Shown here one piece after another: positions 7,484 through 49,835 of a DNA stretch of 64,000 nucleotides. A program made the position numbers and the translations under genes. The stretch comes from Strigamia acuminata. Taxonomy: Eukaryota > Arthropoda > Chilopoda > Geophilomorpha > Linotaeniidae. Every line of letters begins with the position of its first letter. The stretch's first letter is position 1. Where the stretch lies: positions 8,715,601 to 8,779,600 of the forward strand of contig OX442324.1 of the NCBI GenBank assembly GCA_949358305.1, in the 5' to 3' direction. The notes beneath the pieces are model-generated. The model was not told where the DNA came from, did no database searches, and was given only the letters and a program-made list of their open reading frames with translations.

Positions 7484-7864
7484 TGTTGGTATTTGGAGCA
7501 GACATATGGTCACAGCCAGTTAATCTTGCGTGTTTCTATATTGTAAGCGGCTCATGTAGCGCGGTGATCGATTGTTGAGTCGTCTGCTCGAAAGAGCTTA
7601 TTGTTTAGTCTGTTTTGGTGTGTTATCACTTGATAATACATGGTTTTATCTTTATTTATGTAAAGGACAAATCGATGATGGTTATCCATTGATTTGTTCT
7701 CTTTTGTTATGTATTTGACTTGAGGAGAACAAATCTCAAGTCATGACACTTGTTTTTATGATTTGGTCAAATAAAAGGGCTGCCGACGGTTTGTCAGCAA
7801 TGTCAGCACATTTTAACTATGGCTGCATTTTTCCAACTCACTACACATTTAGTAAATCCCAATA
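7484..7864 (+). repeat. Left (5') LTR of element D
   Basis: 381 bp starting TGTTGG, ending CCCAATA, and preceded by GAACA (7479-7483). The right copy at 51465-51845 is the same length and I see one difference (A/T near 7809). It contains the hairpin GACAAATC ... GATTTGTTC, also found in a related form in LTR B. The near-identity means D inserted recently. Confidence 0.85.
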
Positions 7865-9483
7865 ATGGTAGCAGAGGATGGTTTATTTTTAATTTTCCCC
7901 TCTGTCTCAACCATTCTCCCCTCGCTCAATGATGGGGAAACTTCATCTTCCACTGTGTCCACAAAGGGGGAAAGTTCCTGTTCACAAGTGAGTTCCTCAT
8001 AAATCTCTTCATCACTTGTGGCAAGTGTTTCTAAGTGTTCCCCCTCGTTTGCAATACTTCCATACTTATTAAAGTCAACTTCTTCACTCAGCGACAATGG
8101 GGGAATTTGCAATGTCGAATTAATTTCCTCATTCTGTCCTCCATTGCTAAAATCGACCTGTGGATCACATTGATTTGATTCAACCATCCCCAAATTTTCC
8201 CCCTCATTTCCAGTAAACATACGCTCATTGATGCCAACTTCTTCATAAGTCAACAATGGGGGAATTTCAAACTCCATTTCCAATGGGGAAAGCACTTCCA
8301 GCTGAGGGGATATTGGCACTCCAACAACCTTCGATGGAATTTCAATTCCTACATTTCCCATATTATCTAAAGTTTCATCTTTATTGGAGAATTCCAGAGA
8401 GGGTTTAACTTCCCCCTCGTGCCAATAAGTCCACTCAGAAAACTTCATATTGTTTCGAGAAACTTGGAAAATTCTGTTTTTTACTGGGTCCCAGACCCGG
8501 TATTTCCTTCGTGAATTAGAATACCCGATCAGAGCACCCATCCAGAAATATCTTTTCCCATCATTAATGTGGGCAACTTTAACTCTAGACCCCACGCATC
8601 TGAGATGTCGTACCGATACACACCGGTCATACAACACATTGTACGGGGATTTCCAGTTCAAATTAATTCTGGGGGCTCTATTCCTTAAATATATTATTGT
8701 GTTGGCTAGCTCCAACCACAAATAACCTGGAAATTTATTTTCTACAATCAAACTTTCTACCCCGTTCATGATATCCGCATTAGCCCTTTCGGAGATGGAG
8801 TTAGCCACTGGGTTGTCAGAATTTATACTATTAATTGTAATCCCATAATTCCCCATTACTTCTACCCATGTTGCTAATTCTTCTGTGGAAAAATCCATCC
8901 CAGGGCCCAAATAAACTCTAGTCACAGTTCCTCTCAAGCATTTAATTTCAGCTAACCAATATTGAAATTGCACTAAAATGCTATTTTCCTTTAATGGTCT
9001 AAACCATGCGTATTCAGAATAATTATCTGTTATAATGACATATTTTTCCCCAGTTGAATGTGGGGCCCTCCAAACACTCAAATGTACAGCTTCTAAAGCT
9101 TTCCTGTCATCATTCTTCTGTGTTGAGGGAATATTCTTCTTTGTCAAATCTCCTGTTATAGGAGAGGTCCCTGTGTTCTCCAATTGAACTCCAAAAACGT
9201 CTGTTGATCCATTCATAGCATAAATGCTTTCCTTATTCAAATACCCCAGACGGGTATGCCATAATTCTAATGGGAGGACCCGGTCCTTTTCAAACTTTTC
9301 TTTCTGTTTTGTCACATTTCCAGAACACTTTTTCTGATTTTTAATATCAAAATTCAAGGGACCACTCTGTTTAATTCCAGTCATACTTGACTTTTGGTTT
9401 CTCAAAACCCTTTTAGATTTCCCTGAAATCTCTCTTAAAAGATTACTCTTTTGCAAATCTATTTGCATTAAGGGGGTCACCAC
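7849..9483 (-). CDS. Integrase-like protein of D block, catalytic aspartates lost
   Basis: The 544-codon frame resembles the copia pre-integrase and integrase region. It has WHTRLGYLN (the usual form is WH-x-R-[LM]-GH), an ISERANAD segment matching the catalytic-glutamate region, and the C-terminal RVWDPVKN segment shared with B and C. The first catalytic aspartate position reads LSVWRAP (B has MDVWGA) and the second reads YLGPGMDF (B has KTDNGGEF), so both are gone. The pre-integrase CxxC pair is absent. The C-terminal third is acidic with two related repeats (IPPL ... EEV ... NEGE). No RT follows: the frame runs into the inverted primer-binding site at 7884, and its last codons are read from that site. 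It is open for 1.6 kb and may be a retained non-catalytic protein or a young relic. Confidence 0.6.
   Translation of the reverse strand: MVTPLMQIDLQKSNLLREISGKSKRVLRNQKSSMTGIKQSGPLNFDIKNQKKCSGNVTKQKEKFEKDRVLPLELWHTRLGYLNKESIYAMNGSTDVFGVQLENTGTSPITGDLTKKNIPSTQKNDDRKALEAVHLSVWRAPHSTGEKYVIITDNYSEYAWFRPLKENSILVQFQYWLAEIKCLRGTVTRVYLGPGMDFSTEELATWVEVMGNYGITINSINSDNPVANSISERANADIMNGVESLIVENKFPGYLWLELANTIIYLRNRAPRINLNWKSPYNVLYDRCVSVRHLRCVGSRVKVAHINDGKRYFWMGALIGYSNSRRKYRVWDPVKNRIFQVSRNNMKFSEWTYWHEGEVKPSLEFSNKDETLDNMGNVGIEIPSKVVGVPISPQLEVLSPLEMEFEIPPLLTYEEVGINERMFTGNEGENLGMVESNQCDPQVDFSNGGQNEEINSTLQIPPLSLSEEVDFNKYGSIANEGEHLETLATSDEEIYEELTCEQELSPFVDTVEDEVSPSLSEGRMVETEGKIKNKPSSATIIGIY
7866..7884 (+). other. 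Primer-binding site of D (initiator tRNA-Met 3' end)
   Basis: TGGTAGCAGAGGATGGTTT lies one base after the LTR. It complements the 3' end of animal initiator tRNA-Met (CCATCCTCTGCTACCA) over its whole length. Immediately after it the sequence switches to the inverted coding block. Confidence 0.7.
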
Positions 9484-10177
9484 CTTTAATTGTGGTCGCG
9501 CAACCTAATTCTTTATTATTCAAACATCCCTTGTCTAATTTATTCAATTTTCGGTTCTGTTTTAAAGACGGGGGATTCTTTTCTGCGGTTTTTACAAAAA
9601 CCCTTTGTTCCTTCTGTTTACCAGTATCTGGAATGTTAATTCGATTACCTTTGTCCCCCTCGTTCCTTTTATCCCGAACCTGGTTCGGATAATCTGTTCC
9701 TGTCAATCTAGGCTTAATTCCTTTCTTTGTTTTGACAAAACTAAGGGGGTTACCACATTTAACTGTGGTGAAATTCAATTTCTTATTTCCATTGCTAGCT
9801 TTTATTTGAACCTTGTTCAAACATTCTAAATCCCCGTGTCCATGTTGGGATTTGATGTTTTGCACATCATTCATGGCATTCAAAATCCCATTTGAATCAA
9901 CCACCCAATTGTCCTGATTTATGTTACTAGTGCCCCGCACTTTGCTATAACTAACCCCATTTGTTTCCCTCACATGCATATGCATTGCACAAAGTGTCAA
10001 AACTAGATCACTAATGGCCCCTGCCATAACATCAATGTTTTCTGTTAGTGCGCTCTTACAAACTAAATGGGTTAGTGACAATACACTTTTGTCAAAATCA
10101 AAACACAAATCAAATTTCTCTTTTCCAAGAACACTAATTTTCTTCTGCAATTGTTCCCTAAGTGCGTTACTACTCAA
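9443..10177 (-). CDS. D block upstream frame: Gag/protease-position protein, 3' part
   Basis: This lies upstream of the integrase-like frame and overlaps it by about 40 bases in another frame. NWVVDSNG near the middle sits where B has WYVDTGATDH, so it may be a decayed protease active site. The rest is lysine- and asparagine-rich and is not recognised; there is no UBN2-type Gag core and no CCHC knuckle. Its upstream end is cut by the fold-back element; across that insertion (minus one TA copy) the frame is continuous with 11343-11597. It is expected to act in the same element as the integrase-like protein, but the function is unknown. Confidence 0.45.
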   Translation of the reverse strand: MSSNALREQLQKKISVLGKEKFDLCFDFDKSVLSLTHLVCKSALTENIDVMAGAISDLVLTLCAMHMHVRETNGVSYSKVRGTSNINQDNWVVDSNGILNAMNDVQNIKSQHGHGDLECLNKVQIKASNGNKKLNFTTVKCGNPLSFVKTKKGIKPRLTGTDYPNQVRDKRNEGDKGNRINIPDTGKQKEQRVFVKTAEKNPPSLKQNRKLNKLDKGCLNNKELGCATTIKGGDPLNANRFAKE

Positions 10178-14621: not shown

Positions 14622-17600
14622 CTATTTATTTACGACAAAAATGTGTTCGCAAAGAGTGTTTAACCTTGGTTTCGCTAACCATTTGGATAAAACATCCGCC
14701 ACGTTCAAAACCCCTGCGATATGCTTAATAGAGAACGTGCTCTTCTCGAACCAATCACGGACGAAATGCAATTTGACATCTATATGCTTGTTAGCACGGT
14801 TCTCTATTCTATTCTTTGTGTACTGGATCGCCGGCATAGAGTCGGCGTACACGCACGGGGTTGCTCGATCAACGCAGAACATAATGTCTGCGTCGTACAG
14901 CCGATGAAGCCATATAATATCCTTCACCCCATCGACCACGGCCAGAAATTCACTCTCCATGATCGACAGGGAGGTCATCGTCTGCTTATGGCAGTTCCAC
15001 GAGATCGGAACTCCCCCTAGATATACTATATGGCCCCCAAAGCTCCTCCTTTTGTCTTGGTCCAGGGCAAAGGACACGTCAGTGTAGACTGTGAGTGAAT
15101 CGTTCTTGCAATTCGATAAATCAATGGCGTAGTCGGGTGTTTTTCCCAAATATCGCAAAATTTGCATTAGCATGCCCACATGACGCGCAGAATGAGTTTC
15201 GTTATATTGCGAGAGGGCAATGACCGAGAATAAAATATCAGGCCTTGTCCTGCTCGCAACAAACAGAAGACTTCCGACCAAGTTCCTGTACGGAAATGAG
15301 GTGTTAACCTGCTCACCAACTTTGACCTTTTGGATCATCGTACCCGGGGTCCCCGGGACTTTCACGCGGTGACACGGATCCACTCCGTACATTTTACACA
15401 ACTTCTCTATGTACCTTCTCTGGTGAATTCGGATTCGCCCCCCCGATCTGTCGAACTCGATACCCAACAATAGGGTCACCGGACCTAAGTCGACAATGTC
15501 GAAGAAACTTCGAATCCATTTGAGAACGCATTTCTCAACGTAATCGTCTCTTGAGAAGAGAACAATGTCGTCCACGTAAAAGACGATTACGGCCTCGTTG
15601 TCCAGAGAATAGACACAATTTAATCCCAACATCGGTACAAATCCCAGTTGGAGCAGACGGTCGTGAAGTACCTGGTACCACATTCGTCCGCTCTGATGCA
15701 GACCATATAAAGCCTTCAGCAGCATCCAACATTTATGTCGGTTCTTCGATGTTCTGTAGCCCTTGGGGACTTCACAATATTGCACTGTATCGAGGTCGCC
15801 ATAGAGGTAGGCGGCCTTGATATCGATGTGCACGTCGCGCCAGCCCTTAAGCACTACCAAAGTGCAGAAAAAGACGATTACGAGGACGAAGTTGACAACT
15901 GGAGAAAATACTTCAGTAAAGTCAATCCCGGGCCTCTGTTTAAATCCCTGGGCCACTAAACGAGCTCGATAACGTCTAATGACTCCAGTATGGTCGCGCT
16001 TCATTTTATATATCCATTTTGTCCCCAAAAGCTGTACGTCTTTAGGCTTGTCAATTTCGCGATAGACTTCTCGCTCATCGAAAATATCTATTTCATCCTT
16101 CATGGCCCCTTCCCAATAGGGTTTGTTGATGCCCCCAATCGCCTCCTCGTAGGTGTCAGGCTCAACTGCGCAAAACCCCGCAAAAGGTAAGGGCTTTTCA
16201 CTGTCAGAGGTTTTGAAATCGAACAAGCTCGGGTCATATGCGAAACCCTCCCCGTCGCACCATCGCGCAACATCTGTTCGACTTCTCAATTTATCCTCAT
16301 TGGGTGAGAAATAGACTACATCAACTTTTCCCGCAGTTGCCCCGGCTTTACGGACTGACGCAACCCGTCTCCACTTAGTCATGTCCAGTGGCAGCAACAT
16401 TGGGTCTGGGGTTTCTTTCACTTTACCCCTTTTGCCCGAACCGCGACGGGCTTGTATTCCCGGAGGAAGTTCGACTTCCTCATCGTCTTCGGGATAAACG
16501 TTGAAAAATTCTCCATCATCCCCCTTCGCCCCCCCAATTTCTTCAATCGGATTATCCCCACCACGTTCATCGTCCCCAACCAAATCCTCTGCAGTAGTTT
16601 CCACTGCAGGCAGTTGTGTCGCCTGCTTGACCTGTGGTCTCAATTCAGGCCTAAAAGCGGGCTTTGGGGTTGTGGGTAATGCAGGTTTTGCTTTCGGAGC
16701 AGGGGGTTGGGCAGGAGGTTGAGCAGGAGGTGGGACAACAACCACTTCCTGAACCTCTTCTTCAGCTTCTTCGGCAGGGGCAATGGAATCATCATCGTCG
16801 TCTTCGGTTTCAGAAGGAGAACCTGCAAAATATTCAGGTTCCTTATGTCCACTTTGTGGATGGTGCAATCTCTTGCCCACTTCATACCAAAAAGAATCCT
16901 CAAAAATTCGGACATGTTTAGACGCAAACACTTGATTCCGTATGGGATCCCAGATCCTGTAGCCCCTTGTGGATATTGCATATCCAATCAATGCTCCCGC
17001 CCATGCCCTCCCTTCCAGCTTGCCCTTGCGAACTTGGGACGGGATATGGACGAAAGTCTTTGATCCAATACATTTAATATGGCGTAGGGACAATTTCTTG
17101 TCGAAAAATACTGTGTAAGGGGTTTTCCCCTCAATCCCCGCATGTGGAAACCTGTTTTTCAAGTATACGACTGTCGTCGCCAATTCAGCCCAAAGGGGAT
17201 AGGGGAAACTGTTCTCGATCATTAGAGCCCTAACCCCGCTAACAATGGTACGGTTGGCCCTTTCGGCCACGGAATTCATTTCCGGAGAGTATGCGTTTGT
17301 GCGAATGCACTTCAATCCAATTTTCGACGCATAATCATCCCAATTCCTGGAAATGAACTCCCCGCCATTGTCTGTTTTGATACATTTCACTTTCTTGCCC
17401 GTTGTTCGTTCTATTTCCGTCAACCAACGTTTGAAATGACCCAAAACTTCCCCCTTGGTCTTCATCGTAATTATCCACATATAACGTGAATAGTCATCAA
17501 CTAGGATGAAGTAAAAATTGGCCCCACCCAAGGATGTCTTCTGTGATGCTCCCCACACGTCCATGTGGACGAGGGACAAAATCTCTTTTGTAGAGATAGC

Positions 17601-18560
17601 AATAATAGGGGGAAAACTTGCCCTCATGCTCTTCGCACGCGCGCATGCGTCGCATGTTGACAAATTTCTGTCTGAAATGCTAATCCCGAAAACATCTTCC
17701 AGTTTCTCCAAATGGGAGATGCTCTTAGCATTCAGATGCCCCATCCTCGAGTGCCATGTGTCCATGGTCTGTGGCTGTTCTTTGTTTTTCACTGTTACTT
17801 TGGTCAAATCCCCATTAACTTTCGCATTCGCATTTGCTTGGGGAGTATTCGCAGAAGGTATTTGAACCTCATTTCCCGTCTTTGTTAAAGTAATCGCCGC
17901 AGGCGCGTTCATCTTAGCTGTTTCGCTCACTTGCGCAATTAAATTAGGTGCGGATTTTCCCTTATCCGACTTGCTCGAACTGTTTAGTAAAGCGGACTTA
18001 TAATTAAGCATGGTTAGTAACGGTTGTACAAATTTTTCATCCTTTACAGATGACTTGATCAAGTCGAGGACAGCAGCTGCATTCTGGTGCGCAGTTAATG
18101 CAGCTGTGTTTACATTCTTAGCCTCGATACGGCAGCTGACTTTATACAGCCTATCGCTTGTTCTAACTGCCGTGATCGATGGCTCCTCGATCTTGTTCAT
18201 ATAAATCGATATTTTCCCATTCTTGACAAATGTGCACAACCCCGCTTCGTCGGTGCGCCCTAGCGAGATTAGATTCTTGCGGAAATTCGGCGCATAATAA
18301 ACGTTTTCCAGAGTTATTTTCCTTTGTTTGTTTCCATAAAGTGAGGTAAGAACAATGCTGCCGACCCCTTCAATCTTCGATTTTCCTTCCCCTTGTAACA
18401 CACTGAAATTGGATAAAGGCTTATAATCGGAGAACCAGTTCCGGTTGAAGGAAAAGTGGTCGGTCGCTCCTGTGTCCACGTACCACTGCGAGTCGAATTG
18501 TCCGTGCGACACAAGAGACAACGGTTGCGCAGGGGCCTCGTCCAAGACTGCAGAATACAA
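14622..18560 (-). CDS. pol: Copia B1 Pol: protease, integrase, MBD-like, RT, RNase H
   Basis: 1312 codons without interruption. Protease DTGA at residues 29-32; pre-integrase WHSRMGH from about 263 with CDAC; integrase D in MDVWGA (about 334), D in KTDNGGEF (about 397), E in NSVAERANR (about 433). An acidic and proline-rich linker follows. A methyl-CpG-binding-like domain lies at about 729-782 (16210-16376). Then RT with YVDD near 993 and RNase H with YTD near 1160 and MESEF near 1200, ending at KWLAKPRL. In copia elements Gag and Pol form one polyprotein, so translation would normally enter from gag; here that is blocked by a TAG at 18657-18659 and a gag deletion. The pol part itself looks intact. 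Confidence 0.9.
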   Translation of the reverse strand: MYSAVLDEAPAQPLSLVSHGQFDSQWYVDTGATDHFSFNRNWFSDYKPLSNFSVLQGEGKSKIEGVGSIVLTSLYGNKQRKITLENVYYAPNFRKNLISLGRTDEAGLCTFVKNGKISIYMNKIEEPSITAVRTSDRLYKVSCRIEAKNVNTAALTAHQNAAAVLDLIKSSVKDEKFVQPLLTMLNYKSALLNSSSKSDKGKSAPNLIAQVSETAKMNAPAAITLTKTGNEVQIPSANTPQANANAKVNGDLTKVTVKNKEQPQTMDTWHSRMGHLNAKSISHLEKLEDVFGISISDRNLSTCDACARAKSMRASFPPIIAISTKEILSLVHMDVWGASQKTSLGGANFYFILVDDYSRYMWIITMKTKGEVLGHFKRWLTEIERTTGKKVKCIKTDNGGEFISRNWDDYASKIGLKCIRTNAYSPEMNSVAERANRTIVSGVRALMIENSFPYPLWAELATTVVYLKNRFPHAGIEGKTPYTVFFDKKLSLRHIKCIGSKTFVHIPSQVRKGKLEGRAWAGALIGYAISTRGYRIWDPIRNQVFASKHVRIFEDSFWYEVGKRLHHPQSGHKEPEYFAGSPSETEDDDDDSIAPAEEAEEEVQEVVVVPPPAQPPAQPPAPKAKPALPTTPKPAFRPELRPQVKQATQLPAVETTAEDLVGDDERGGDNPIEEIGGAKGDDGEFFNVYPEDDEEVELPPGIQARRGSGKRGKVKETPDPMLLPLDMTKWRRVASVRKAGATAGKVDVVYFSPNEDKLRSRTDVARWCDGEGFAYDPSLFDFKTSDSEKPLPFAGFCAVEPDTYEEAIGGINKPYWEGAMKDEIDIFDEREVYREIDKPKDVQLLGTKWIYKMKRDHTGVIRRYRARLVAQGFKQRPGIDFTEVFSPVVNFVLVIVFFCTLVVLKGWRDVHIDIKAAYLYGDLDTVQYCEVPKGYRTSKNRHKCWMLLKALYGLHQSGRMWYQVLHDRLLQLGFVPMLGLNCVYSLDNEAVIVFYVDDIVLFSRDDYVEKCVLKWIRSFFDIVDLGPVTLLLGIEFDRSGGRIRIHQRRYIEKLCKMYGVDPCHRVKVPGTPGTMIQKVKVGEQVNTSFPYRNLVGSLLFVASRTRPDILFSVIALSQYNETHSARHVGMLMQILRYLGKTPDYAIDLSNCKNDSLTVYTDVSFALDQDKRRSFGGHIVYLGGVPISWNCHKQTMTSLSIMESEFLAVVDGVKDIIWLHRLYDADIMFCVDRATPCVYADSMPAIQYTKNRIENRANKHIDVKLHFVRDWFEKSTFSIKHIAGVLNVADVLSKWLAKPRLNTLCEHIFVVNK
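16210..16376 (-). other. MBD-like domain encoded in B1 pol
   Basis: The segment begins KWRR and contains VRKAGATAG, VDVVYFSP, KLRS and SLFDF in the order and spacing of the methyl-CpG-binding domain. Compared with human MBD1, the stretch from Trp15 to Ser45 aligns without gaps. Arg22, Asp32, Arg44 and Ser45 are kept; Tyr34 is Val. B2 (28620-28786) and B3 (32705-32870) carry the same domain. Confidence 0.8.
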
Positions 18561-18656: not shown

Positions 18657-19449
18657 CTAGGCAGGTGAGTTGACATTAGAGGAAAATGTTCCTTGTTTAG
18701 GCGGTGAGGGGCATTCGCGGGCGAAGTGGCCTGTTCCGCCACAAGTAAAACACGTGCCACGCTGAATCCCTGCCGAATTCGAAGTTTTCTCTCTAGGTTT
18801 CCAGTTGCTTTTGCCAAAAAAAGCATTTGCGTTGTCCACTGCACTTGGTACGACGCCAAACTCGTTGTTCTGCTCATAAAGGCGATTGTATTCGCCAAGC
18901 AACCTATCTTTGACATTTTGGGCTGTGAACTCTGCATCGCCCCAGTGGTATGCAGTTTGCTTCACAGCTTCATATTGTGGGGGCAAAAGGTCCAAGTATT
19001 GAAATGCCAGGAACTCATCGGAGACTTCAATCTTCACATCTTTTAATTCTGTGACTTTTCGATCCACTCTTCCGGTGAAAACCAACATTTCTTCATTCTC
19101 TAGCAGTTTCAAATTGAGAAATTCGCGACGAAGACGAGCCCGACGTGCTCTCGTTGTCGGCTTTCAACGCCTCCCATACTTTTGCAGCAGTGGGGCAGGC
19201 AACGGCTATAACCTGTTGCGGTTCGGCGCAACTCATGCACAACGTAGACATGGCTTTGTCTTCCCGGACAGTAAATTCTCTTTTTTCCTTTGCCGTCGCT
19301 GTGTCCGGCAATTTCGGCTCTGTGCCGTTCACGTGGCCCCAGACACCGTTGTATTTGAGCAGAAGTTGAATCTGCACCGCCCATGTTGCATAGTTCGTGC
19401 CGTCGAGCTTCTTGACATCTTTATAGTCATCATGCCTATTAGAAGCCAT
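18657..19449 (-). pseudogene. gag: Copia B1 gag, broken
   Basis: ATG at 19449 opens MASNRHDDYKDVKKLDG, the UBN2-type copia Gag core. An 11-base deletion near 19160 (compared with B3, between short GC repeats) shifts the frame and gives a stop at 19093. The downstream part in the right frame holds the CCHC knuckle CFTCGGTGHFAREC (about 18720-18765). A TAG replaces CAG at 18657-18659 just before the protease region. It cannot give a complete Gag-Pol; B3 has the intact gag. Confidence 0.85.
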
Positions 19450-20059: not shown

Positions 20060-20365
20060 TGTTGAAATTGCTTGTATACTTGTGTTAATTGCATAGTTCT
20101 GCAGCAATGGTGTGGAAAAAGTCCAAAGTAAAAACACAGGTGTTTACAGGTATGAAATCAAACATAGAGTGAGTTTTATTTCTCAAGTCACATGACATGC
20201 CCACAGGTATACGACGCCACCTTATGGTGATAAATACAAACACATTTGTAAACATAATCACAGCTATTAGTTTTAGCCAAAAGCAAACATAAACAAAAGG
20301 TCACAATAAGTATAAAGTGTCACTGCTTGATAATACGATACAAATATATATACGATATTTCAACA
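20060..20365 (-). repeat. 3' LTR of element A
   Basis: 306 bp; sense strand begins TGTTGAAATATCG and ends AATTTCAACA. The minus-strand polypurine tract GAGGGGGCCGAT abuts it at 20366-20377. Confidence 0.9.
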
Positions 20366-20383
20366 ATCGGCCCCCTCGTAATA

Positions 20384-22717
20384 TCAAGCGCTTAATACAT
20401 TCATATCAACCAAGAAACGATTACAGAAATACACTAAATCGGTTTTATCCACGGATTTTGTGAAAATATCCGCAAAATTGCACTTAGTGCCCACATGTGT
20501 AATCTGAAGATTATCTCTTCTTACTAGCTCCCGAATGAAATGATATCGCACGTCGATATGCTTCGTTTTGCGATTTTCGACGTTGGACCTTGTGAAATCA
20601 ACCGTCGATATGTTATCGCATAACACGTGGTGATTGAATTTATCCGCTAATTCGGGAACAATTTCGTAGAGCACTCTTAGAATCCATATGTAGTCTTTTA
20701 CTGTTTCAGTAAGAGCTACATATTCTGCCTCCATGGTTGATAAAGTGACGTTTCGTTGTTTGAACGTTCTCCAATATACGGGTGAATTTCCTAGCAATAT
20801 AATAGTCCCACCAACGGAAATTCTGTCGTCCCTATTGTTGGCATAATCGGAATCACTGTAGCCAACGACCTCGACACGATCATTAGGGAAGAGCATCAAT
20901 CCAAGGCTCTTTGTTGTCCTGAGGTAACTCAGCAAATCCAGCAATGCGATCCAATGGTCCCATCCTGGATTGGACTGAAATTGGCTAAGGATGTTGATGG
21001 CATACGTTAAGTCGGGTCTGGTTCTTGATCCAATAAATGCCAGACATCCCAGTAGGTTCCGGTAAGGGATTTTTTCCATAATCCTAAAGTCTTCGATCGT
21101 GTTCGGACATTGTTGTTTGGTGAGAATGGTGGACTTTACCATTGGCTGCGATCGAATTTTCACTAACTTCAAGTGGTTGTCAAATCTCAACAAGACTTTA
21201 TTGATGTAGGTCTTTTGATGTAGCACCATCTGCTCTCTATATGAGGTAATTTCGACGCCTAACAATTTTTTTGTCTGTCCAAGAAAGACCAAATCGAATT
21301 GTGTTTTGACCATGTTCAACACATTCATGGCATCTTCATACTGCTTTCCAAAAACTACAATGTCATCCACGTAGACTATTAAATATGCGATGTTTCCATA
21401 TTTATAGACGCAGTTGCACCAATTTACGTGTTGCAGTCCGAGTCCAAGCAAAGTATCCTCCAATTCAATTCCCCATTCACGCCCTGACTGGTGCAAACCG
21501 TAAATTGCACGGAGAAGTTTACAGACGTAATTCTCCTTGCCTTGGCAAACAAAACCCTTTGGCTGACGCATGTAAACGGTTTTGTGCAATTTCGCATAGA
21601 GGTAAGCACATTTCACGTCGGCTTGGATGTAACTCCACTTCAACATGCAGACAAGCAACGTAAACATAAATCGAACGATGGAGAAGTCGACTACTGGTGA
21701 AAATGTTTCTTCGTACGACTCGCCGTAGACTTGTGAGAAGCCTTGCGCGACAAGTCTCGCTTTGTAACGTGCGATTTTCCCCTCATCGTTCTGTTTGGTG
21801 GTGTAAATCCACTTGCAGCCAATTATCTTGGTGTCTGGCGGCGGTGGAACCAACTCCCACACCTCACGCTCGTGCATCGTATCAATCTCGTCGCACATCG
21901 CTTGATTCCATTGTTGTTTTTCAGGTGCATTGGCGACTTGTTCAAAGCGCGTTGGTATAAATACTTCGAGATGATTTGCCTCCAAGTTAACGTCAATGTC
22001 ATCCGCAGTCACATTCGATTCGGAAGGCTTCTTTTTCCTTTTGTCGTCAAAAAGGTGTTCCGGAATGTGAAGGTTGTGCTCCACACAATAGCGTTTGACT
22101 TCCGGAATTGAACGTAACCTCGGTTTATCATATCCTTCGATTGTATATTCAATGTCTTTTTGACCAGTTGGTCTTGTCTTCTCGGTCTTTTTCCATACAA
22201 GAGCTGGTATGGTCGGAATTGGGTTTGGAAAAACCTGTCCAGGTTGTTGCAGAACGTTTGGTTGCTTCACTGCTGGCAAGTTGTGTCGCAACGCATCTTC
22301 GGGCAGTCTGAACTTCAACCTAACTGGAGGTAATTCTTCTCCCTCTTTCTTCTTGATAGGTTGTGGCGGGGGTAGCGGTGGCCTCACATCCTCGTCGGAG
22401 TAGTATTGACGGTCATTGTCGTTGTCCAGATTATCATTGAGATTGTCAATGTACGTCGTATATCTCTCCGGTAGGCCCAGCACGCCTTCAACTCCGCGCC
22501 TGCTCTCAACGAATTTTACGTCGCTGGTCTCAATAACTTTTGAAAAATCAGGCAACCAGACTCTGTACCCCTTTGTAATTCTGGAATACCCTAACATGAT
22601 GCCGTGCAGTCCTTTATTGTCTATTTTTCCATCACGTACTCGCTTTTGCACAAAACACAGACTTCCAAATTTTCGTAAATGCCGAAGTGATGGTTTGCGG
22701 CCATAATATAACTCCAT
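20384..22717 (-). CDS. pol: Copia A Pol, 3' part: integrase end, MBD-like, RT, RNase H
   Basis: Same frame as 22826-24889, separated only by one stop codon at 22826-22828 (Arg CGA to TGA judged from B and C). It begins in the integrase C-terminal region (PSLRHLRKFGS). An MBD-like segment follows at 22045-22200 (WKK ... KTRPTG ... KDIEY ... RLRS ... VKRYC). RT follows with KWIYTTKQNDEG, YGLHQSGREW and YVDD near 21362-21373, then RNase H with GYSDSDYA and MEAEYVAL, ending ADIFTKSVDKTDL. Apart from the stop, no damage is seen in A. Confidence 0.9.
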   Translation of the reverse strand: MELYYGRKPSLRHLRKFGSLCFVQKRVRDGKIDNKGLHGIMLGYSRITKGYRVWLPDFSKVIETSDVKFVESRRGVEGVLGLPERYTTYIDNLNDNLDNDNDRQYYSDEDVRPPLPPPQPIKKKEGEELPPVRLKFRLPEDALRHNLPAVKQPNVLQQPGQVFPNPIPTIPALVWKKTEKTRPTGQKDIEYTIEGYDKPRLRSIPEVKRYCVEHNLHIPEHLFDDKRKKKPSESNVTADDIDVNLEANHLEVFIPTRFEQVANAPEKQQWNQAMCDEIDTMHEREVWELVPPPPDTKIIGCKWIYTTKQNDEGKIARYKARLVAQGFSQVYGESYEETFSPVVDFSIVRFMFTLLVCMLKWSYIQADVKCAYLYAKLHKTVYMRQPKGFVCQGKENYVCKLLRAIYGLHQSGREWGIELEDTLLGLGLQHVNWCNCVYKYGNIAYLIVYVDDIVVFGKQYEDAMNVLNMVKTQFDLVFLGQTKKLLGVEITSYREQMVLHQKTYINKVLLRFDNHLKLVKIRSQPMVKSTILTKQQCPNTIEDFRIMEKIPYRNLLGCLAFIGSRTRPDLTYAINILSQFQSNPGWDHWIALLDLLSYLRTTKSLGLMLFPNDRVEVVGYSDSDYANNRDDRISVGGTIILLGNSPVYWRTFKQRNVTLSTMEAEYVALTETVKDYIWILRVLYEIVPELADKFNHHVLCDNISTVDFTRSNVENRKTKHIDVRYHFIRELVRRDNLQITHVGTKCNFADIFTKSVDKTDLVYFCNRFLVDMNVLSA
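22045..22200 (-). other. MBD-like domain encoded in element A
   Basis: The most diverged of the three versions. The start Trp, the first arginine (KTRPTG), the DIEY strand, RLRS and the helix VKRYC are kept; the loop after the first arginine is about four residues shorter and Tyr34 of MBD1 is Glu. It is recognised mainly because B and C have clearer versions at the same place. Confidence 0.6.
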
Positions 22718-22825
22718 TGGTGTTTTGTCTGAGTTTAACTTCGCTATCCTATTCCTGAAATAGTTGAAAGTTAAAATTGCCTCGCCCCAAAAGCGATGTT
22801 CCAGTTGTGCGTCATAGATGAGAGC

Positions 22826-24889
22826 TCACATGCCATTTGCTAGTGTCTGGTTTAATCTCTCAGAAACGCCATTTTGGGCGGGTGTGTACGCATTTGTCCT
22901 TTCGTAAGCGATCCCTTGTTGGTCAAGATACTCTCCAAATTTATTCGAACAAAACTCCATGCCATTGTCCGTGCGGATGGCCAGGATTGACTTTCCCAGT
23001 AGTCTTTCAATCCGTTTTGCGTGTTTTTGAAAAATGCCGAACACTTCATCCTTTTGTTTCATCAAGTAAACCGTGGAATAACGGGAAAAATCATCGGTTA
23101 TAGTCAGGAAATACCTATTTCCTGAAAGTGTTGGCGTTGAAAAAGCCCCGCATACGTCCATGTGCAAAAGTTCCAAAGGCTGTTTCGACCTAATTCCTGG
23201 TAGAGATTTATGAGAGATGGCCTTTTTCTTCGCGAGCGTGCAAACATCACACTGCGTGATTGGCACGTCCAAAATCGGTAGTCCAACTACTGCATCACGC
23301 TTGCTCATTTCTTGCACGCTTGGGAAGTGGATGTGTCCAAGTCTCTCATGCCATAATCTCGCTTCTTCTGGATTGGAGGCCTTTTTGGTTGAGCTAGTCG
23401 GTTCTTGCATTTGTTGTGTTTGTTGCTCGCCAGTACTCGCCTTGTTGCTTTCTTTCAACTTCAATTTTTCAATGTCTAGTTTTGAATCACTTGTTTTGAC
23501 ATAATAAAGTCTGTCCTTTTTAATTGCCTCCATTAATTGTCTCTTCCATTGTGGATCGTAGATTTTCACTACTCCCGAGCCAATTGCCACTTTGCATCTG
23601 GCTTCGTCGATGCAAGGTCCCGACAATAGATTTCTCCTTAAATCTGGCGCGTAATACACTTTCTTCAATGTGATTGGGATTGTGTCAGTTCCCACCACAC
23701 ACATCACGCACACGTCTCCTACTCCTTGGATTTGTATTAGCGTCTTCTTGTCCGCTTGGCTTATAGTGCCTTTCATTTCTTGGAAATTTACGAATTGGTT
23801 CCTATTCTTACAGAAATGCCCAGTGGCCCCGGTATCATAGATCCAACAACTGCTGGTTGCGCCACACTGCAGCATCTCCTCTTCACTCAATTCGGTAAGG
23901 AAACCAACATTCATCATATCCGTGTCCAATTCTTCGACAGTATTCGTGTTTTGGTTACTAGCTGGTGTGAGTTGGACTGTGCAATCCCTCGCCCAGTGCC
24001 CTGGCTGATTGCATCGGAAACACGGCCCCCGTGGTGATGATCCGGTGGTGTTTCCTCGAAAATTCCTTGTGTTCTTGTTTCCACGATAATTCGATCGTCC
24101 ACCTCTTTGTCCTCCTCCAAACCCACGACTGTTTTGGCCACTATTCCCTTGTTGCTGTTGTTGCTGGAACTTTGGCGTGTTGTCGTTATTTTTCGCGTTG
24201 GAGTTGTTTGGCCCCGTGCTGAAGGCATCGACGATTGGCCCCTGGCCCGAATCCCTTCTCTGTTGTGCAAGTCGACCTTCTTCTGCCACTAACTCCACTT
24301 CCACCTTTTCCAGTGTAAAGTCTTTGTCATCCCATCTGTATATGCTCTGCACTATCGATTGAAACTCTTGTGGTAAGTAACGAATCAACTGAAAGGCTTG
24401 ATATAAATTGTCCAACTGGTGTTTAACATCCGCCAACTTCTTTGCAGCATTCCTAATTTTTGCGGCAAAAACTCCAATCGTCTCCGTGGCTGGATCGTAC
24501 TTAAGACTGAAAAATTCGTCCAATAAACGTATTGTACGTGCTCTTGACACCGGCTCGAAATTGGTTTTCAAGGTGATCCACGCTGTCTTGGCGTCATCAA
24601 TCCCATTGAGCAGCTCGTGGTACTGCTCCTCGATTGAATAATAAATCAGACTGAAAGCTCTTCCTTTTCGTAGCTGATAGTCGGATCGGTCTCTCCACGA
24701 CGCTCCAGGTGCCAGCGCCTCTTCCGTACCATCGGTACCATGGTGCATCAACAGCACTTTGATCTGCTGTTTCCAGCCATCGTAGTTAGTCCGATTCAAT
24801 AGTGTGACCTTTCTGTCCAATTTGTCCGATTCCATCGTGATGTGCGCTTGTAAAATGCTCAAACTTGGTTTCCCACTCAAAACGCACAC
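22826..24889 (-). CDS. gag-pol: Copia A Gag, protease and integrase, 5' part
   Basis: The likely start is the ATG at 24835 (MESDKLDRK), although the frame is open further up. UBN2-type Gag core, then an N/Q/G-rich stretch, CCHC knuckle CFRCNQPGHWARDC (about 23985-24025), protease DTGA in WIYDTGATGHF (about 23840), pre-integrase WHERLGH ... CDVC, and integrase D (MDVCGA), D (RTDNGMEF), E (NGVSERLN). The frame stops at TGA 22826-22828 inside integrase, where B and C read on; the change is a CpG-type C to T. One base change separates A from a complete frame. Confidence 0.9.
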   Translation of the reverse strand: MCVLSGKPSLSILQAHITMESDKLDRKVTLLNRTNYDGWKQQIKVLLMHHGTDGTEEALAPGASWRDRSDYQLRKGRAFSLIYYSIEEQYHELLNGIDDAKTAWITLKTNFEPVSRARTIRLLDEFFSLKYDPATETIGVFAAKIRNAAKKLADVKHQLDNLYQAFQLIRYLPQEFQSIVQSIYRWDDKDFTLEKVEVELVAEEGRLAQQRRDSGQGPIVDAFSTGPNNSNAKNNDNTPKFQQQQQQGNSGQNSRGFGGGQRGGRSNYRGNKNTRNFRGNTTGSSPRGPCFRCNQPGHWARDCTVQLTPASNQNTNTVEELDTDMMNVGFLTELSEEEMLQCGATSSCWIYDTGATGHFCKNRNQFVNFQEMKGTISQADKKTLIQIQGVGDVCVMCVVGTDTIPITLKKVYYAPDLRRNLLSGPCIDEARCKVAIGSGVVKIYDPQWKRQLMEAIKKDRLYYVKTSDSKLDIEKLKLKESNKASTGEQQTQQMQEPTSSTKKASNPEEARLWHERLGHIHFPSVQEMSKRDAVVGLPILDVPITQCDVCTLAKKKAISHKSLPGIRSKQPLELLHMDVCGAFSTPTLSGNRYFLTITDDFSRYSTVYLMKQKDEVFGIFQKHAKRIERLLGKSILAIRTDNGMEFCSNKFGEYLDQQGIAYERTNAYTPAQNGVSERLNQTLANGM

Positions 24890-25550
24890 TTGTATTCGTC
24901 AAAAACACTTTGTCTACTGGATACTCGCAACTAAGTGCAGTGTTGCGAGGTTAGTTCGCTCTTAGACTAAGTTAGTATCAACTCTAGCACAACACTAAGC
25001 TAATAATATAATAATTCCGAAAATAAACACGAAAATTGTTCATAAATGTTGTCTTCGAGATGCTTTCCTGCTGTGCTTCTCGTTGCATTACGCTTCACGC
25101 GTGTTGTTCTGCCAATTGTTCTCCAATTTTCCGTCTTTGTTTCTGAATTCCTTTCCGCTTGTTTCCGTCCAGAAAATTCAGGTTCACACTTCACGTGTGG
25201 TTGTAAAGAATTTCCGTCCCGCTTTGGCACTCGTTGAATCGTTTCCGTCTCGTAATTATCGTCTCGTCGACGATACGTATTGCTTCTCGCAATATCAAAC
25301 GGTAACGTCCAAAATTCGGAAAATAAAGGAAATATAAATAATTGTTTTATATTGTTATATTGTTCTATATTGTTCTATATTGTTCCTGTGTTGTTAGTTG
25401 ACTCGAAATTGTTTCCAAACGCTGATTCTCATGGCACAAACACAAGCTGGTCACATTCATCATGGGCGCCGCCATTTTGAATAATTAGAGGAAATTTCTC
25501 AAAACCTCTCTAATTTGATGAAAATGATTCCAAATTGTTTTCTCACGATT
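24890..25550 (-). other. Leader of element A
   Basis: About 660 bases between the primer-binding site and the gag ATG. No gene or repeat is seen apart from the ATATTGTTCT triplication at about 25350-25385. Confidence 0.6.
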
Positions 25551-25564
25551 TCTGGCCCATAACC
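25551..25564 (-). other. Primer-binding site of A (internal initiator tRNA-Met)
   Basis: The minus strand reads GGTTATGGGCC one base after the LTR. This complements the anticodon arm of initiator tRNA-Met (GGCCCATAACC), the half-tRNA priming known from Drosophila copia, not the tRNA 3' end. Confidence 0.65.
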
Positions 25565-25565
25565 T

Positions 25566-25871
25566 TGTTGAAATTGCTTGTATACTTGTGTTAATTGCAT
25601 AGTTCTGCAGCAATGGTGTGGAAAAAGTCCAAAGTAAAAACACAGGTGTTTACAGGTATGAAATCAAACATAGAGTGAGTTTTATTTCTCAAGTCACATG
25701 ACATGCCCACAGGTATACGACGCCACCTTATGGTGATAAATACAAACACATTTGTAAACATAATCACGGCTATTAGTTTTAGCCAAAAGCAAACATAAAC
25801 AAAAGGTCACAATAAGTATAAAGTGTCACTGCTTGATAATACGATACAAATATATATACGATATTTCAACA
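25566..25871 (-). repeat. 5' LTR of element A
   Basis: 306 bp, same ends as 20060-20365; one difference seen (G at about 25769, A in the other copy). Confidence 0.9.
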
Positions 25872-26521
25872 AAATCGTCGGCAAACTCGTCTCGTTTGCT
25901 AAACGTTCGCTCGTCGCTCGAAATTCGTCGTAGCGACGTAAATAACGCTTCGAAAATTCCGCCGATTGTCGGTTATCCTTCCCACGATCGTAATGGTATC
26001 CAACGTTGTTAATTTCCAGCGCTGGGTATCCCAAAACTGCTTGAAAACGTCCGTGGTCAAACGCAGACACGATTAACGATGGCCGCCGCCATCTTGTGTT
26101 TCATCGGGCGTGGATTCGTTTGAAAAAAAATGGCTTATTTCGCCAAAAGAAAATCAACAATTGTTCCTACCGTCCTTGGTATTTCGGTTGTTGCTTATTT
26201 GAGCACACAACCGTCCCGAAATGATCCTACGACGTCTCGAAGCACACACTCGGCGGTTAGGCTTCGCCGCCACTCGTAATGCACGAGAATGACCGTCGTT
26301 TGATCGTACGACGCCAAAACGTTGACAACGCTTATTTTCGCGTTGAAAGACACAAATAATAGTTCGAAAGTACCCGTACAGTTCTCCGCACACGTTCCAA
26401 CGACGATTACCGCACCGAAAAATTCGTTTTTGCGACGAACTGGGCGGGCGCGACCTTCGCGCCTTCACATCGTTGAAAAATGGTCGTGCAACTCTTCAAA
26501 ACTTCCTAACAGGATCGTTTT
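25872..26521 (-). other. B1 leader, LTR-proximal half
   Basis: CpG-rich leader between the B1 primer-binding site and the A insertion. No coding region is supported; short open frames on both strands have no signature. Confidence 0.55.
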
Positions 26522-27030: not shown

Positions 27031-29075
27031 CTATTTATTTACGACAAAAATGTGTTCGCAAAGAGTGTTTAACCTTGGTTTCGCTAACCATTTGGTTAAA
27101 ACATCTGCCACGTTCAAAACCCCTGCGATATGCTTAATAGAGAACGTGCCCTTCTCGAACCAATCACGGACGAAATGCAATTTGACATCTATATGCTTGT
27201 TAGCACGGTTCTCTATTCTATTCTTTGTGTACTGGATCGCCGGCATAGAGTCGGCGTACACTCACGGGGTTGCTCGATCAACGCAGAACATAATGTCTGC
27301 GTCGTACAGCCGATGAAGCCATATAATATCCTTCACCCCATCGACCACGGCCAGAAATTCACTCTCCGTGATCGACAGGGAGGTCATCGTCTGCTTATGG
27401 CAGTTCCACGAGATCGGAACTTCCCCTAGATATACTATATGGCCCCCAAAGCTCCTCCTTTTGTCTTGGTCCAGGGCAAAGGACGCGTCAGTGTAGACTG
27501 TGAGTGAATCGTTCTTGCAATTCGATAAATCAATGGCGTAGTCGGGTGTGTTTCCCAAATATCGCAAAATTTGCATTAGCATGCCCACATGACGCGCAGA
27601 ATGAGTTTCGTTATATTGCGAGAGGGCAATGACCGAGAATAAAATATCAGGCCTTGTCCTGCTCGCAACAAACAGAAGACTTCCGACCAAGTTCCTGTAC
27701 GGAAATGAGGTGTTAACCCGCTCACCAACTTTGACCTTTTGGATCATCGTACCCGGGGTCCCCGGGACTTTCACGCGGTGACACGGATCCACTCCGTACA
27801 TTTTACACAACTTCTCTATGTACCTTCTCTGGTGAATTCGGATTCGCCCCCCCCGATCTGTCGAACTCGATACCCAACAATAGGGTCACCGGACCTAAGT
27901 CGACAATGTCGAAGAAACTTCGAATCCATTTGAGAACGCATTTCTCAACGTAATCGTCTCTTGAGAAGAGAACAATGTCGTCCACGTAAAAGACGATTAC
28001 GGCCTCGTTGTCCAGAGAATAGACACAATTTAATCCCAACATCGGTACAAATCCCAGTTGGAGCAGACGGTCGTGAAGTACCTGGTACCACATCCGTCCG
28101 CTCTGATGCAGACCATATAAAGCCTTCAGCAGCATCCAACATTTATGTCGGTTCTTCGATGTTCTGTAGCCCTTGGGGACTTCACAATATTGCACTGTAT
28201 CGAGGTCGCCATAGAGGTAGGCGGCCTTGATATCGATGTGCACGTTGCGCCAGCCCTTAAGCACTACCAAAGTGCAGAAAAAGACGATTACGAGGACGAA
28301 GTTGACAACTGGAGAAAATACTTCAGTAAAGTCAATCCCGGGCCTCTGTTTAAATCCCTGGGCCACTAAACGAGCTCGATAACGTCTAATGACTCCAGTA
28401 TGGTCGCGCTTCATTTTATATATCCATTTTGTCCCCAAAAGCTGTACGTCTTTAGGCTTGTCAATTTCGCGATAGACTTCTCGCTCATCGAAAATATCTA
28501 TCTCATCCTTCATGGCCCCTTCCCAATAGGGTTTGTTGATGCCCCCAATCGCCTCCTCGTAGGTGTCAGGCTCAACTGCGCAAAACCCTGCAAAAGATAA
28601 GGGCTCTTCACCGACAGAGGTTTTGTAATCGAACAAGCTCGGGTCATATGCGAAACCCTCCCCGTCGCACCATCGCGCAACATCTGTTCGACTTCTCAAT
28701 TTATCCTCATTGGGTGAGAAATAGACCACATCCACTTTTCCCGCAGTTGCCCCGGCTTTACGGACTGACGCAACCCGTCTCCACTTAGTCATGTCCAGTG
28801 GCAGCAACATTGGGTCTGGGGTTTCTTTCACTTTACCCCTTTTGCCCGAACCGCGACGGGCTTGTATTCCCGGAGGAAGTTCGACTTCCTCATCGTCTTC
28901 GGGATAAACGTTGAAAAATTCTCCATCATCCCCCTTCGCCCCCCCAATTTCTTCAATCGGATTATCCCCACCACGTTCATCGTCCCCAATCAAATCCTCT
29001 GCAGTGGTTTCCACTGCAGGCAGTTGTGTCGCCTGCTTGACCTGTGGTCTCAATTCAGGCCTAAAAGCGGGCTTT
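27031..29075 (-). pseudogene. pol: Copia B2 pol fragment: MBD-like, RT, RNase H
   Basis: Second B copy, missing gag, protease and integrase. It begins at an inverted junction at about 29075, inside the linker before the MBD-like domain (28620-28786). RT with YVDD near 27985. A run of eight C (about 27847-27854, seven in B1) shifts the frame after the RT, and a TGA at about 27259-27261 replaces Cys of the B1 sequence in RNase H. The rest to KWLAKPRL is intact. Frames: 27803-29075, 27262-27810, 27031-27258. Confidence 0.9.
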
Positions 29076-32163: not shown

Positions 32164-33682
32164 ACATGTCCGCATTTTTGAGGATTCTTTTTGGTATGAA
32201 GTGGGCAAGAGATTGCACCACCCACAAGGTGGACATAAGGAACCTGAATATTTTGCGGGTTCTCCTTCTGAAACCGAAGACGACGATGATGATTCCATTG
32301 CCCCTGCCGAAGAAGCTGAAGAAGAGGTTCAGGAAGTGGTTGTTGTTCCACCTCCTGCTCAACCTCCTGCCCAACCCCCTGCTCCGAAAGCAAAACCTGC
32401 ATTACCCACAACCCCAAAGCCCGCTTTTAGGCCTGAATTGAGACCACAGGTCAAGCAGGCGACACAACTGCCTGCAGTGGAAACTACTGCAGAGGATTTG
32501 GTTGGGGACGATGAACGTGGTGGGGATAATCCGATTGAAGAAATTGGGGGGGCGAAGGGGGATGATGGAGAATTTTTCAACGTTTATCCCGAAGACGATG
32601 AGGAAGTCAAACTTCCTCCGGGAATACAAGCCCGTCGCGGTTCGGGCAAAAGGGGTAAAGTGAAAGAAACCCCAAACCCAATGTTGCTGCCACTGGACAT
32701 GACTAAGTGGAGACGGGTTGCGTCAGTCCGTAAAGCCGGGGCAACTGCGGGAAAAGTTGATGTAGTCTATTTCTCACCCAATGAGGATAAATTGAGAAGT
32801 CGAACGGATGTTGCACGGTGGTGCGACAGAGAAGGCTATGCCTACGTCCCGGAACTTTTCGACTTCAAAACCTCTGACGGCGAAGAGCCTTTACCTTTTG
32901 CGGGGTTTTGCGCAGTTGAGCCTGACGAGGAGGCGATTGGGGGCATCAACAAACCCTATTGGGAAGGGGCCATGAAGGACGAGATAGATATTTTCGATGA
33001 GCGAGAAGTCTATCGCGAAATTGACAAGCCTAAAGACGTACAGCTTTTGGGGACAAAATGGATATGTAAAATGAAGCGCGACCATACTGGAGTCATTAGA
33101 CGTTATCAAGCTCGTTTAGTGGCCCAGGGATTTAAACAGAGGCCCGGGATTGACTTTACTGAAGTATTTTCTCCAGTTGTCAACTTCGTCCTCGTAATCG
33201 TCTTTTTCTGCACTTTGGTAGTGCTTAAGGGCTGGCGCGACGTGCACATCGATATCAAGGCCGCCTACCTCTATGGCGACCTCGATACAGTGCAATATTG
33301 TGAAGTCCCCAAGGGCTACAGAACATCGAAGAACCGACATAAATGTTGGATGCTGCTGAAGGCTTTATATGGTCTGCATCAGAGCGGACGGATGTGGTAC
33401 CAGGTACTTCACGACCGTCTGCTCCAACTGGGATTTGTACCGATGTTGGGATTAAATTGTGTCTATTCTCTGGACAACGAGGCCGTAATCGTCTTTTACG
33501 TGGACAACATTGTTCTCTTCTCAAGAGACGATTACGTTGAGAAATGCGTTCTCAAATGGATTCGAAGTTTCTTCGACATTGTCGACTTAGGTCCGGTGAC
33601 CCTATTGTTGGGTATCGAGTTCGACAGATCGGGGGGGGCGAATCCGAATTCACCAGAGAAGGTACATAGAGAAGTTGTGTAA
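31970..33682 (+). pseudogene. pol: Copia B3 Pol middle part: linker, MBD-like, RT
   Basis: True sequence from about 32055. Integrase C-terminal segment (RIWDPIRNQVF), acidic and proline-rich linker, MBD-like domain at 32705-32870, then RT with KWICKMKRDHTG and YVDN near 33498, where B1 and B2 have YVDD: the second active-site aspartate is Asn, so this RT would be inactive. A run of eight G near 33632 (seven in B1) shifts the frame; B2 has the same extra base. Confidence 0.85.
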
Positions 33683-34159
33683 AATGTACGGAGTGGATCC
33701 GTGTCACCGCGTGAAAGTCCCGGGGACCCCGGGTACGATGATCCAAAAGGTCATAGTTGGTGAGCGGGTTAACACCTCATTTCCGTACAGGAACTTGGTC
33801 GGAAGTCTTCTGTTTGTTGCGAGCAGGACAAGGCCTGATATTTTATTCTCGGTCATTGCCCTCTCGCAATATAACGAAACTCATTCTGCGCGTCATGTGG
33901 GCATGCTAATGCAAATTTTGCGATATTTGGGAAACACACCCGACTACGCCATTGATTTATCGAATTGCAAGAACGATTCACTCACAGTCTACACTGACGC
34001 GTCCTTTGCCCTGGACCAAGACAAAAGAAGGAGCTTTGGGGGCCATATAGTATATCTAGGGGGAGTTCCGATCTCGTGGAACTGCCATAAGCAGACGATG
34101 ACCTCCCTGTCGATCATGGAGAGTGAATTTCTGGCCGTGGTCGATGGGGTGAAGGATAT
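33675..34159 (+). pseudogene. pol: Copia B3 Pol: end of RT and RNase H start
   Basis: Continues B3 pol after the frameshift, from KMYGVDPCHRVKVPGTPG to the RNase H residues MESEFLAVVDGVKDI. It is cut at 34159 by gypsy E. RNase H YTDASFALDQ is present near 33990. Confidence 0.9.
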
Positions 34160-34703
34160 TGTTACGTGTGGGTTGGGGTGATCCACACACATAACAAATG
34201 CTAATTAATTTAGCAAAGACCTTGAAATCCTTTAGGTGAAATGATTGAGAGAACTGATTTATCATTTAAATAAATCTCTTTTATTCTATGGGATTTATTA
34301 CAAACTTAACAAAATCAAATGATAAACATAATCCTTTATTTTACATAAACATAAAGCAAGAAAGCAAGAATGATAATCAAATTATATCTCTATGAATTTG
34401 GAAAGGCGGGGTGGGACCAAGCGCTGTGTGCGCTGGTCCACAGAAGCCTTTACTTACCATGTTAACTGTTTGAGGCTCAGAACATTTCTGCTCTCTCAAA
34501 CCCACTTAGCTCACCAGGTAAACTCTGGGTCCACCCCCGCTCTACTTGATTGATTAGTCCAGTTGCCCTGTGCATAATTAACACAGTGACAACTGGTGAG
34601 CGGATTTGGAAACTCCAGTGTGCCTAGTGAGAGCTTTCAGAATTAATTCTCTAAACAGAGCGTTTAGGCCCGCTGTCGTACAGCGAGGTCTGCGCTCGTA
34701 ACA
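34160..34703 (-). repeat. 3' LTR of gypsy E
   Basis: 544 bp, sense strand TGTTACGAGCGCAG ... CACACGTAACA. The polypurine tract AAAGGGGGGGG (minus strand) abuts at 34704-34715. Confidence 0.95.
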
Positions 34704-34715
34704 GCCCCCCCCTTT

Positions 34716-39111: not shown

Positions 39112-39113
39112 TA

Positions 39114-39123
39114 CTAGTTTCCC
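39114..39123 (-). promoter_or_regulatory. Putative -1 frameshift site at gag stop of E
   Basis: The minus strand reads GGGAAACTAG, with GGGAAAC in the X XXY YYZ phase relative to gag (codons GGA AAC before TAG). A -1 slip continues as GKL, then through VVPQRQ, into the open pol frame. Confidence 0.6.
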
Positions 39124-40945: not shown

Positions 40946-40957
40946 GCATCTCCACCA
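40946..40957 (-). other. Primer-binding site of E (tRNA-Ala 3' end)
   Basis: The minus strand reads TGGTGGAGATGC, three bases (AAG) after the LTR. Confidence 0.7.
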
Positions 40958-40960
40958 CTT

Positions 40961-46316: not shown

Positions 46317-46439
46317 AGACTTCCGATAAGATTGATGTTCGTCGATTTAAACGTGAATAGATTCATATACTCTGTCTTCGACCGGATTCCAGACTCTGTA
46401 GCCGCGGGTGCTGGTGGCGTAGCCAACAAGATATCCTTC

Positions 46440-49833: not shown

Positions 49834-49835
49834 AA

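Follow-up and report, generated by a model that had tools for sequence, protein, structure and literature searches.

A methyl-CpG-binding domain between integrase and reverse transcriptase of copia retrotransposons in Strigamia acuminata

The window, by which we mean the whole analysed stretch of 64 000 nucleotides of Strigamia acuminata DNA, contains three copies of a copia-type element (B1, B2 and B3) along with two further copia elements, A and C. Features that bear on a methyl-CpG-binding domain (MBD) in these elements are as follows.

14622–18560, minus strand: copia B1 Pol open frame of 1312 aa, with Pol_BBD, gag_pre-integrs, rve, SH3_retrovirus, MBD and RVT_2
16212–16373, minus strand: B1 MBD, from W to K (aa 730–783), by Pfam, AlphaFold2 model and Foldseek/VIA-align
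20060–25872, minus strand: copia A element with LTRs at 20060–20366 and 25566–25872 (99.7%) and a 4-bp direct flank AATC
20384–22717, minus strand: copia A Pol, with an MBD-like segment at the same place as in B
22040–22195, minus strand: the reduced MBD-like segment of copia A, with a short first loop and Glu at the Tyr34 place
28622–28783, minus strand: B2 MBD, from W to K (Pfam 1e-9)
32708–32869, plus strand: B3 MBD, from W to K (Pfam 2.2e-11), in a copy split by a gypsy element at 34159–41504
43056–50433, minus strand: copia C element with long repeats at 43056–43602 and 49887–50433 (99.1% identical, ends as aligned)
43824–46316 and 46440–48923, minus strand: copia C Pol frames
45414–45575, minus strand: copia C MBD with the Arg-Tyr-Arg triad kept (DVYYFP...RLRS); Pfam 15.6 bits, under the cut-off of 21

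The copia order of protease, integrase and reverse transcriptase (RT), with RVT_2, was found in B1, and terminal repeats were found in A and C. Upstream of the B1 Pol, a fragment of gag that includes a CCHC knuckle is found in another frame (18657–19112); thus the gag-pol of B1 is broken. Nested insertions occupy 29259–50910: B3 is split by a gypsy element whose two LTRs are identical, and the far end of B3 appears to have received copia C. Elsewhere in the window, a copia relic (7849–10177, minus strand) retains SH3 and integrase-like sequence, with no RT in frame and no MBD seen in the tail; an inverted repeat of ∼1.2 kb at 10161–11370 matches its own reverse complement at 95%.

The MBD of B1 is encoded on the minus strand, between the integrase and RT domains (Pfam positions: SH3_retrovirus, aa 487–559; MBD, aa 729–784; RVT_2, aa 831–1069). 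The match to PF01429 scored 39.7 bits (E = 3.8e-10) against a curated cut-off of 21, and the three B copies ranged from 38 to 44 bits. When the PDB was searched with a profile of eight copies, the best match was MBD2 (E = 1.6e-15). In a Foldseek search with the AlphaFold2 model of the B1 domain the top 45 rows were all MBD/TAM folds; the MBD of SETDB2 with C11orf46 was present among the fold matches. By Pfam profile, profile-to-PDB search and fold alike, the B segment is a true MBD. Pfam matches of B1 included no further domain of MBD proteins, and no chromodomain was found among the Pfam matches of B1, A and C.

These results bear out the initial annotation, which had proposed an MBD-like domain at this place in the B Pol, with a gap-free match to MBD1 from Trp15 to Ser45 (which we take to be MBD1 residue numbering). 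The stretch concerned, WRRVASVRKAGATAGKVDVVYFSPNEDKLRS, has 31 residues; equivalents of Arg22, Asp32, Arg44 and Ser45 are present in it, and Val stands at the Tyr34 place, as had been described. The range given there for B1 agreed with ours to within a few bases and lacked the strand, which is minus. B2 and B3 were also rightly named as carriers (both exceed the Pfam cut-off, at coordinates within a few bases of those proposed), but the list was too short, as versions of the domain are also present in two more copia of the same window, C and, in a reduced state, A.

Every copia Pol with an RT in the window (B, C and A) thus has the domain at the same place, reduced in A. The case for C and A was made with profiles built from other copies. 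In such leave-out comparisons C scored 45 bits and A scored 20–21 bits (E from 3e-7 to 6e-7), while shuffled A sequences reached at most 7.2 bits among the 521 of 1000 shuffles reported. Eleven other MBD rows scored at least 89 bits against the same profiles, in which their own sequences or near copies sit; L002 scored 8–9 bits in a chosen frame that ends before its MBD. The maximum for 15 copia Pols lacking the domain (13 from the same genome and two copia contaminants in bacterial assemblies) was 3.9 bits. The Pfam search gave no MBD match in copia A, and the fold match of the C domain is weak (best Foldseek E 0.065, with MBD/TAM in the top 16 rows); L001, L003 and L006, from elsewhere in the genome, scored 47–52 bits with the Pfam MBD.

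To estimate constraint, dN/dS of the MBD was compared with that of the linker just before it, in the six pairs that allowed an estimate for each (no MBD ratio could be obtained from the L042–L008 and C–L004 pairs, owing to saturation). The values were as follows.

B1–L043: MBD 0.04, linker 0.30, integrase 0.04
B1–L013: MBD 0.12, linker 0.28, integrase 0.04
L043–L013: MBD 0.05, linker 0.28
L013–L042: MBD 0.23, linker 0.32
B1–L042: MBD 0.18, linker 0.30
L008–L040: MBD 0.20, linker 0.23, integrase 0.10

The MBD ratio was the lower one in all six pairs; as dS is high in most of them, the ratios are rough. Constraint is clearest in B1–L043, B1–L013 and L043–L013, and in L008–L040 the MBD hardly differs from the linker, by a small margin. 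The MBD therefore appears to be mostly under constraint, and a functionless MBD is disfavoured by dN/dS below that of the linker.

A genome-wide search extended the domain to several hundred scored copia loci. We scored 150 loci each for PF01429, for relatives of C (at least 67% identity) and for relatives of A (at least 76% identity), out of 1092, 1246 and 398 candidates, respectively; these three larger figures are unscored first-look counts that may overlap, and the scored sets can be told apart by identity. Each of the 150 scored PF01429 loci clears the cut-off, and 149 are free of internal stops; the surrounding frame has 1627 aa at 49 loci and 1567 aa at 24. The set includes one short exon that is not copia (C3:20309085). 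Many frames of C relatives have 1647–1701 aa, and many of those of A relatives ∼1500–1533 aa. A C-type MBD at G000:C1:66463876-66464145 lies inside an open frame of 3432 aa, double the usual length.

In a maximum-likelihood tree of 24 rows built from RT only, the nine MBD rows and the 15 MBD-less copia rows are split by a branch with support 100/97, and A is separated from the other eight MBD rows (99/96). L001, L002, L003 and L040, which have a partial RT or are near copies, were left aside, as was L006; B1 and L043 in the tree are close relatives. Within this genome, the MBD is a trait of a lineage. A single gain on the stem of this lineage would be the simplest reading of the RT tree, whose root is unfixed. 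Outside the genome, IMG/VR gave no relatives by protein or RT alignment, and the search of GTDB contigs gave L048 and L049, copia contaminants that have no MBD.

The residues that matter for methyl selectivity vary within the lineage. The Trp and the equivalents of Arg22, Asp32, Arg44 and Ser45 are invariant in eight aligned copies (A being aligned with a shortened loop). Tyr34 is kept in C, L001, L002, L003, L004, L006 and L041, and in all 10 sampled relatives of C (67–97% identity). Its place is taken by Val in B, L013 and L043, by Ile in L008, L039 and L040 and by Trp in L042. In A and in six of six sampled A relatives the residue is Glu, if the preceding KD is taken as the Asp32 place; the first loop is short here and automatic alignment put the residue elsewhere. 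As the Val, Ile and Trp rows form one branch of the RT tree (100/100), loss of the tyrosine at the base of this branch is the simplest reading. Score groups and the loci sampled suggest that most of the 150 scored PF01429 loci belong to the Tyr-less branch.

According to the part of PMC9520026 available to us, the methyl selectivity of MBD2 depends critically on two arginines and a tyrosine, and the weak selectivity of MBD3 is put down mostly to a Tyr-to-Phe change relative to MBD2. MBD2 requires this tyrosine for its selectivity; having no counterpart of it, B makes a poor candidate for methyl reading. Judged by these residues, copia C of the window would be a better methyl-reading candidate than B. 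Methyl-CpG steering of integration, which had been suggested for B, seems plausible for the families with Tyr and weaker for B.

The host has candidate components of a methylation pathway. Four DNMT1-like loci and one DNMT2-like locus were found (L031, L032, L033, L034 and L036, labelled by reading their translations), and these five account for all 11 PF00145 matches. DNMT3 may be absent, as far as a PF00145 search that short exons could escape can tell. From the DNMT1-like genes we infer that the host methylates its DNA. One host MBD2/3 locus was found (L046, around C5:5733299-5733592), with Phe at the selectivity tyrosine (GKIDVFYY); its MBD is divided across two exons.

Decay of CpG in the elements was assessed by comparing copies with each other for transitions at CpG versus other C. 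Counts were 27/521 versus 50/1789 for B1–B3 (p = 0.012), 7/285 versus 10/861 for B1–B2 (p = 0.15) and 11/207 versus 14/642 for B2–B3. The excess at CpG was ∼2 for B copies, 1.6 for L001/L002 and 1.0–1.2 for the L013, L008 and L003/L004 families; two MBD-less families also gave 1.0–1.2. By CpG decay, then, methylation of the MBD copia elements looks weak. Observed/expected CpG was 0.99 in the window, 0.97 in 36 MBD copia, 1.23 in 40 MBD-less copia and 1.45 in seven host loci, classes that differ in composition, so that the ratios carry no conclusion on methylation.

Chromosomal positions were compared for 149 MBD loci (C3:20309085 having been dropped beforehand), 150 copia loci selected by RVT_2 and 150 gypsy-type loci. 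The RVT_2 loci were taken as MBD-less on the basis of 40 translations read out of 150 (L072 and L074 were too short to judge) and the profile run on 13. Among 264 pairs of MBD and RVT_2-selected loci closer than 500 kb, 78% were of the same kind; shuffling gave a mean of 50% and a maximum of 60%, and none of 300 shuffles reached the observed 0.78. The two kinds of copia thus tend to occupy different parts of the chromosomes. MBD copia and gypsy were much more mixed, with 57% of 441 pairs of the same kind and two of 300 shuffles as high. As gypsy fills much the same regions as MBD copia, the map can be explained without the MBD; Pfam gave no MBD in the gypsy copies of the window. The map fits a common gypsy-rich compartment, and either targeting or later selection could have shaped it.

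The families differ in detail. On contig C3, 20 C-type loci lie in the first 13 Mb and one beyond, and on C6 one and five, respectively; A-type loci follow this map loosely (eight and three on C3, four and six on C6). With 'arm' regions drawn post hoc, after the data had been seen, the arm share was 12/50 for the L013 type, 3/32 for the L008 type, 7/35 for the B/L043 type and 5/8 for the L042 type, these labels being score groups with small-contig loci and some rows excluded. It was 44/139 for C-type and 49/139 for A-type loci (11 small-contig loci excluded from each), and 115/147 for RVT_2-selected copia and 32/136 for gypsy (hand sums with small contigs excluded). We also observed a wider spread through the chromosome arms for the L042 family, with Trp at the Tyr34 place, than for the families with Val or Ile: of 38 sites of a tag, 20 lay in the arms, again with the post hoc regions. 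The tag is an arbitrary 13-mer, taken to represent the L042 family as it recurs ∼540 bp from the MBD of that family; of its 41 sites, 38 entered the count, after those on C7 and C95 and the L006 copy had been dropped. TTAGG repeats, which are typical of arthropods, form arrays in the genome; contig C1 begins with such an array.

LTR elements whose integrase carries a chromatin reader are known, the readers being chromodomains. In chromoviruses of the Ty3/gypsy type, likewise, a reader domain lies C-terminal of integrase in a lineage of LTR retrotransposons; here, in contrast, the elements are copia rather than gypsy and the fold is that of a DNA-methylation reader rather than a histone reader. 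The copia MBD shares domain homology, fold and the invariant Trp, Arg, Asp, Arg and Ser with cellular MBD proteins (MBD2/3, MBD4, MBD1 and MeCP2; PF01429) and differs from them in lying inside a retrotransposon Pol and, in the B, L008 and L042 branch, in lacking the selectivity tyrosine.

The initial annotation knew of no copia lineage with an MBD, and none was found in the open-licence literature, where titles and the starts of abstracts gave no copia with methyl-CpG binding (annotation elsewhere is possible); yet a diatom copia, CoDi-A, is on record, in the portion of PMC2774666 available, with a putative chromodomain at the integrase C-terminus. CoDi-A and the present elements are thus both copia with an integrase C-terminal reader, a putative chromodomain there and an MBD here, in different hosts. 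According to the accessible part of PMC9673352, the integrase tail of Ty1 holds a targeting domain and that of Ty5 drives integration into heterochromatin. The targeting sequence there lies in the C-terminal tail of a copia-superfamily integrase, where the MBD also lies; the Ty1 and Ty5 motifs, however, are short and bind a host protein (AC40 and Sir4), while the MBD is a folded domain of the DNA-reader type. Dinoflagellate and charophyte retrotransposons encode DNA methyltransferases (PMC5890265, as far as available); they have likewise captured a DNA-methylation module, but theirs is a writer enzyme and the present one has a reader fold. A term search of the main text of PMC5890265 found no mention of MBD. 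In open-licence print we thus found no DNA-methylation reader in the integrase region of an LTR retrotransposon, chromodomains being the known precedent.

We consider it probable that a true MBD was captured once and has been kept as a folded module of the integrase tail, where it would bind DNA or chromatin and tether the integration complex. The capture would have occurred on the branch leading to the MBD copia lineage. The module sits in the C-terminal tail of integrase, after SH3 and just before RT, and would stay with integrase after processing, although it might go with RT instead once the protease has acted. As the position is that of the Ty1/Ty5 targeting domains and of the CoDi-A chromodomain, an integrase-borne tether suggests itself; by analogy with these tail domains and with the chromodomains of chromoviruses, the MBD would hold the integration complex at its target. 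Families with both Arg and the Tyr (C, L001, L003/L004, L006 and L041) could favour methylated CpG, and in the B/L013/L008/L042 branch, where Val, Ile or Trp replaces the Tyr, DNA is probably bound almost irrespective of methylation.

A copia integrase that reads methylation, such that C-type elements land at methylated CpG and the B, L008 and L042 families later lost selectivity and changed sites, is a possibility that we put forward tentatively. If true, these would be the first retrotransposons known to us to aim by means of a 5-methylcytosine reader. It is somewhat doubtful that the MBD is blind to methylation in every family, acting like that of MBD3 to raise the affinity of integrase or RT for DNA non-specifically or where CpG is dense. 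Val, Ile, Trp or Glu in place of Tyr in the B, L008, L042 and A types would fit such blindness, as would the Phe of the host's own MBD2/3, the weak CpG decay and the Tyr-to-Phe change to which the same available part of PMC9520026 attributes most of the drop in selectivity from MBD2 to MBD3; but the retention of Tyr together with both Arg in C, L001, L003/L004, L006 and L041, and of the Tyr in each of the 10 sampled C relatives, would be unexpected if methylation were irrelevant.

A role after integration or during expression is unlikely. In such a role the MBD would serve as an anti-silencing decoy, masking methylated copies from host MBD2/3-NuRD; the host MBD2/3 gene and the four DNMT1-like loci mean that a reader pathway may exist, and retrotransposons with their own DNMT are known from the accessible text of PMC5890265. 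A position in the polyprotein between integrase and RT, however, is better suited to enzymes bound to the particle than to a decoy abundant in the nucleus, and the elements show little sign of methylation. We give little credence to a structural insert with no DNA role, such as a partner-binding or folding module: some MBD-like domains do bind proteins (that of SETDB2 with C11orf46, for instance) and A-type copies have lost much of the first loop, but all eight aligned copies retain both arginines that contact DNA, along with the aspartate and serine. Chance resemblance, or a general copia linker unrelated to MBD, can practically be dismissed. Copia linkers are variable and of low complexity, and A and C fall below the Pfam cut-off, but the 15 MBD-less Pols stay at or under 3.9 bits and the profile-to-PDB and fold matches point the other way; Pfam, the PDB profile, Foldseek and the leave-out profile scores rule this explanation out.

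In a diverse lineage rich in long-frame copies, the genome offers MBDs with and without the selectivity tyrosine, and it has MBD-less copia as well, so that whether methylation steers integration is directly testable in one species; the copies also form a natural series of MBDs free of host duties. Among the MBD-less copia, L050, L073, L080 and L088 have KRGPGRP, KRGRGRR and GKRGRPRK runs in the linker that joins SH3 to RT, the position in the integrase tail that the MBD takes in its own lineage. We take these runs to be AT-hook-like; from their sequences it looks as if different copia lineages had been fitted with different DNA-binding tails.
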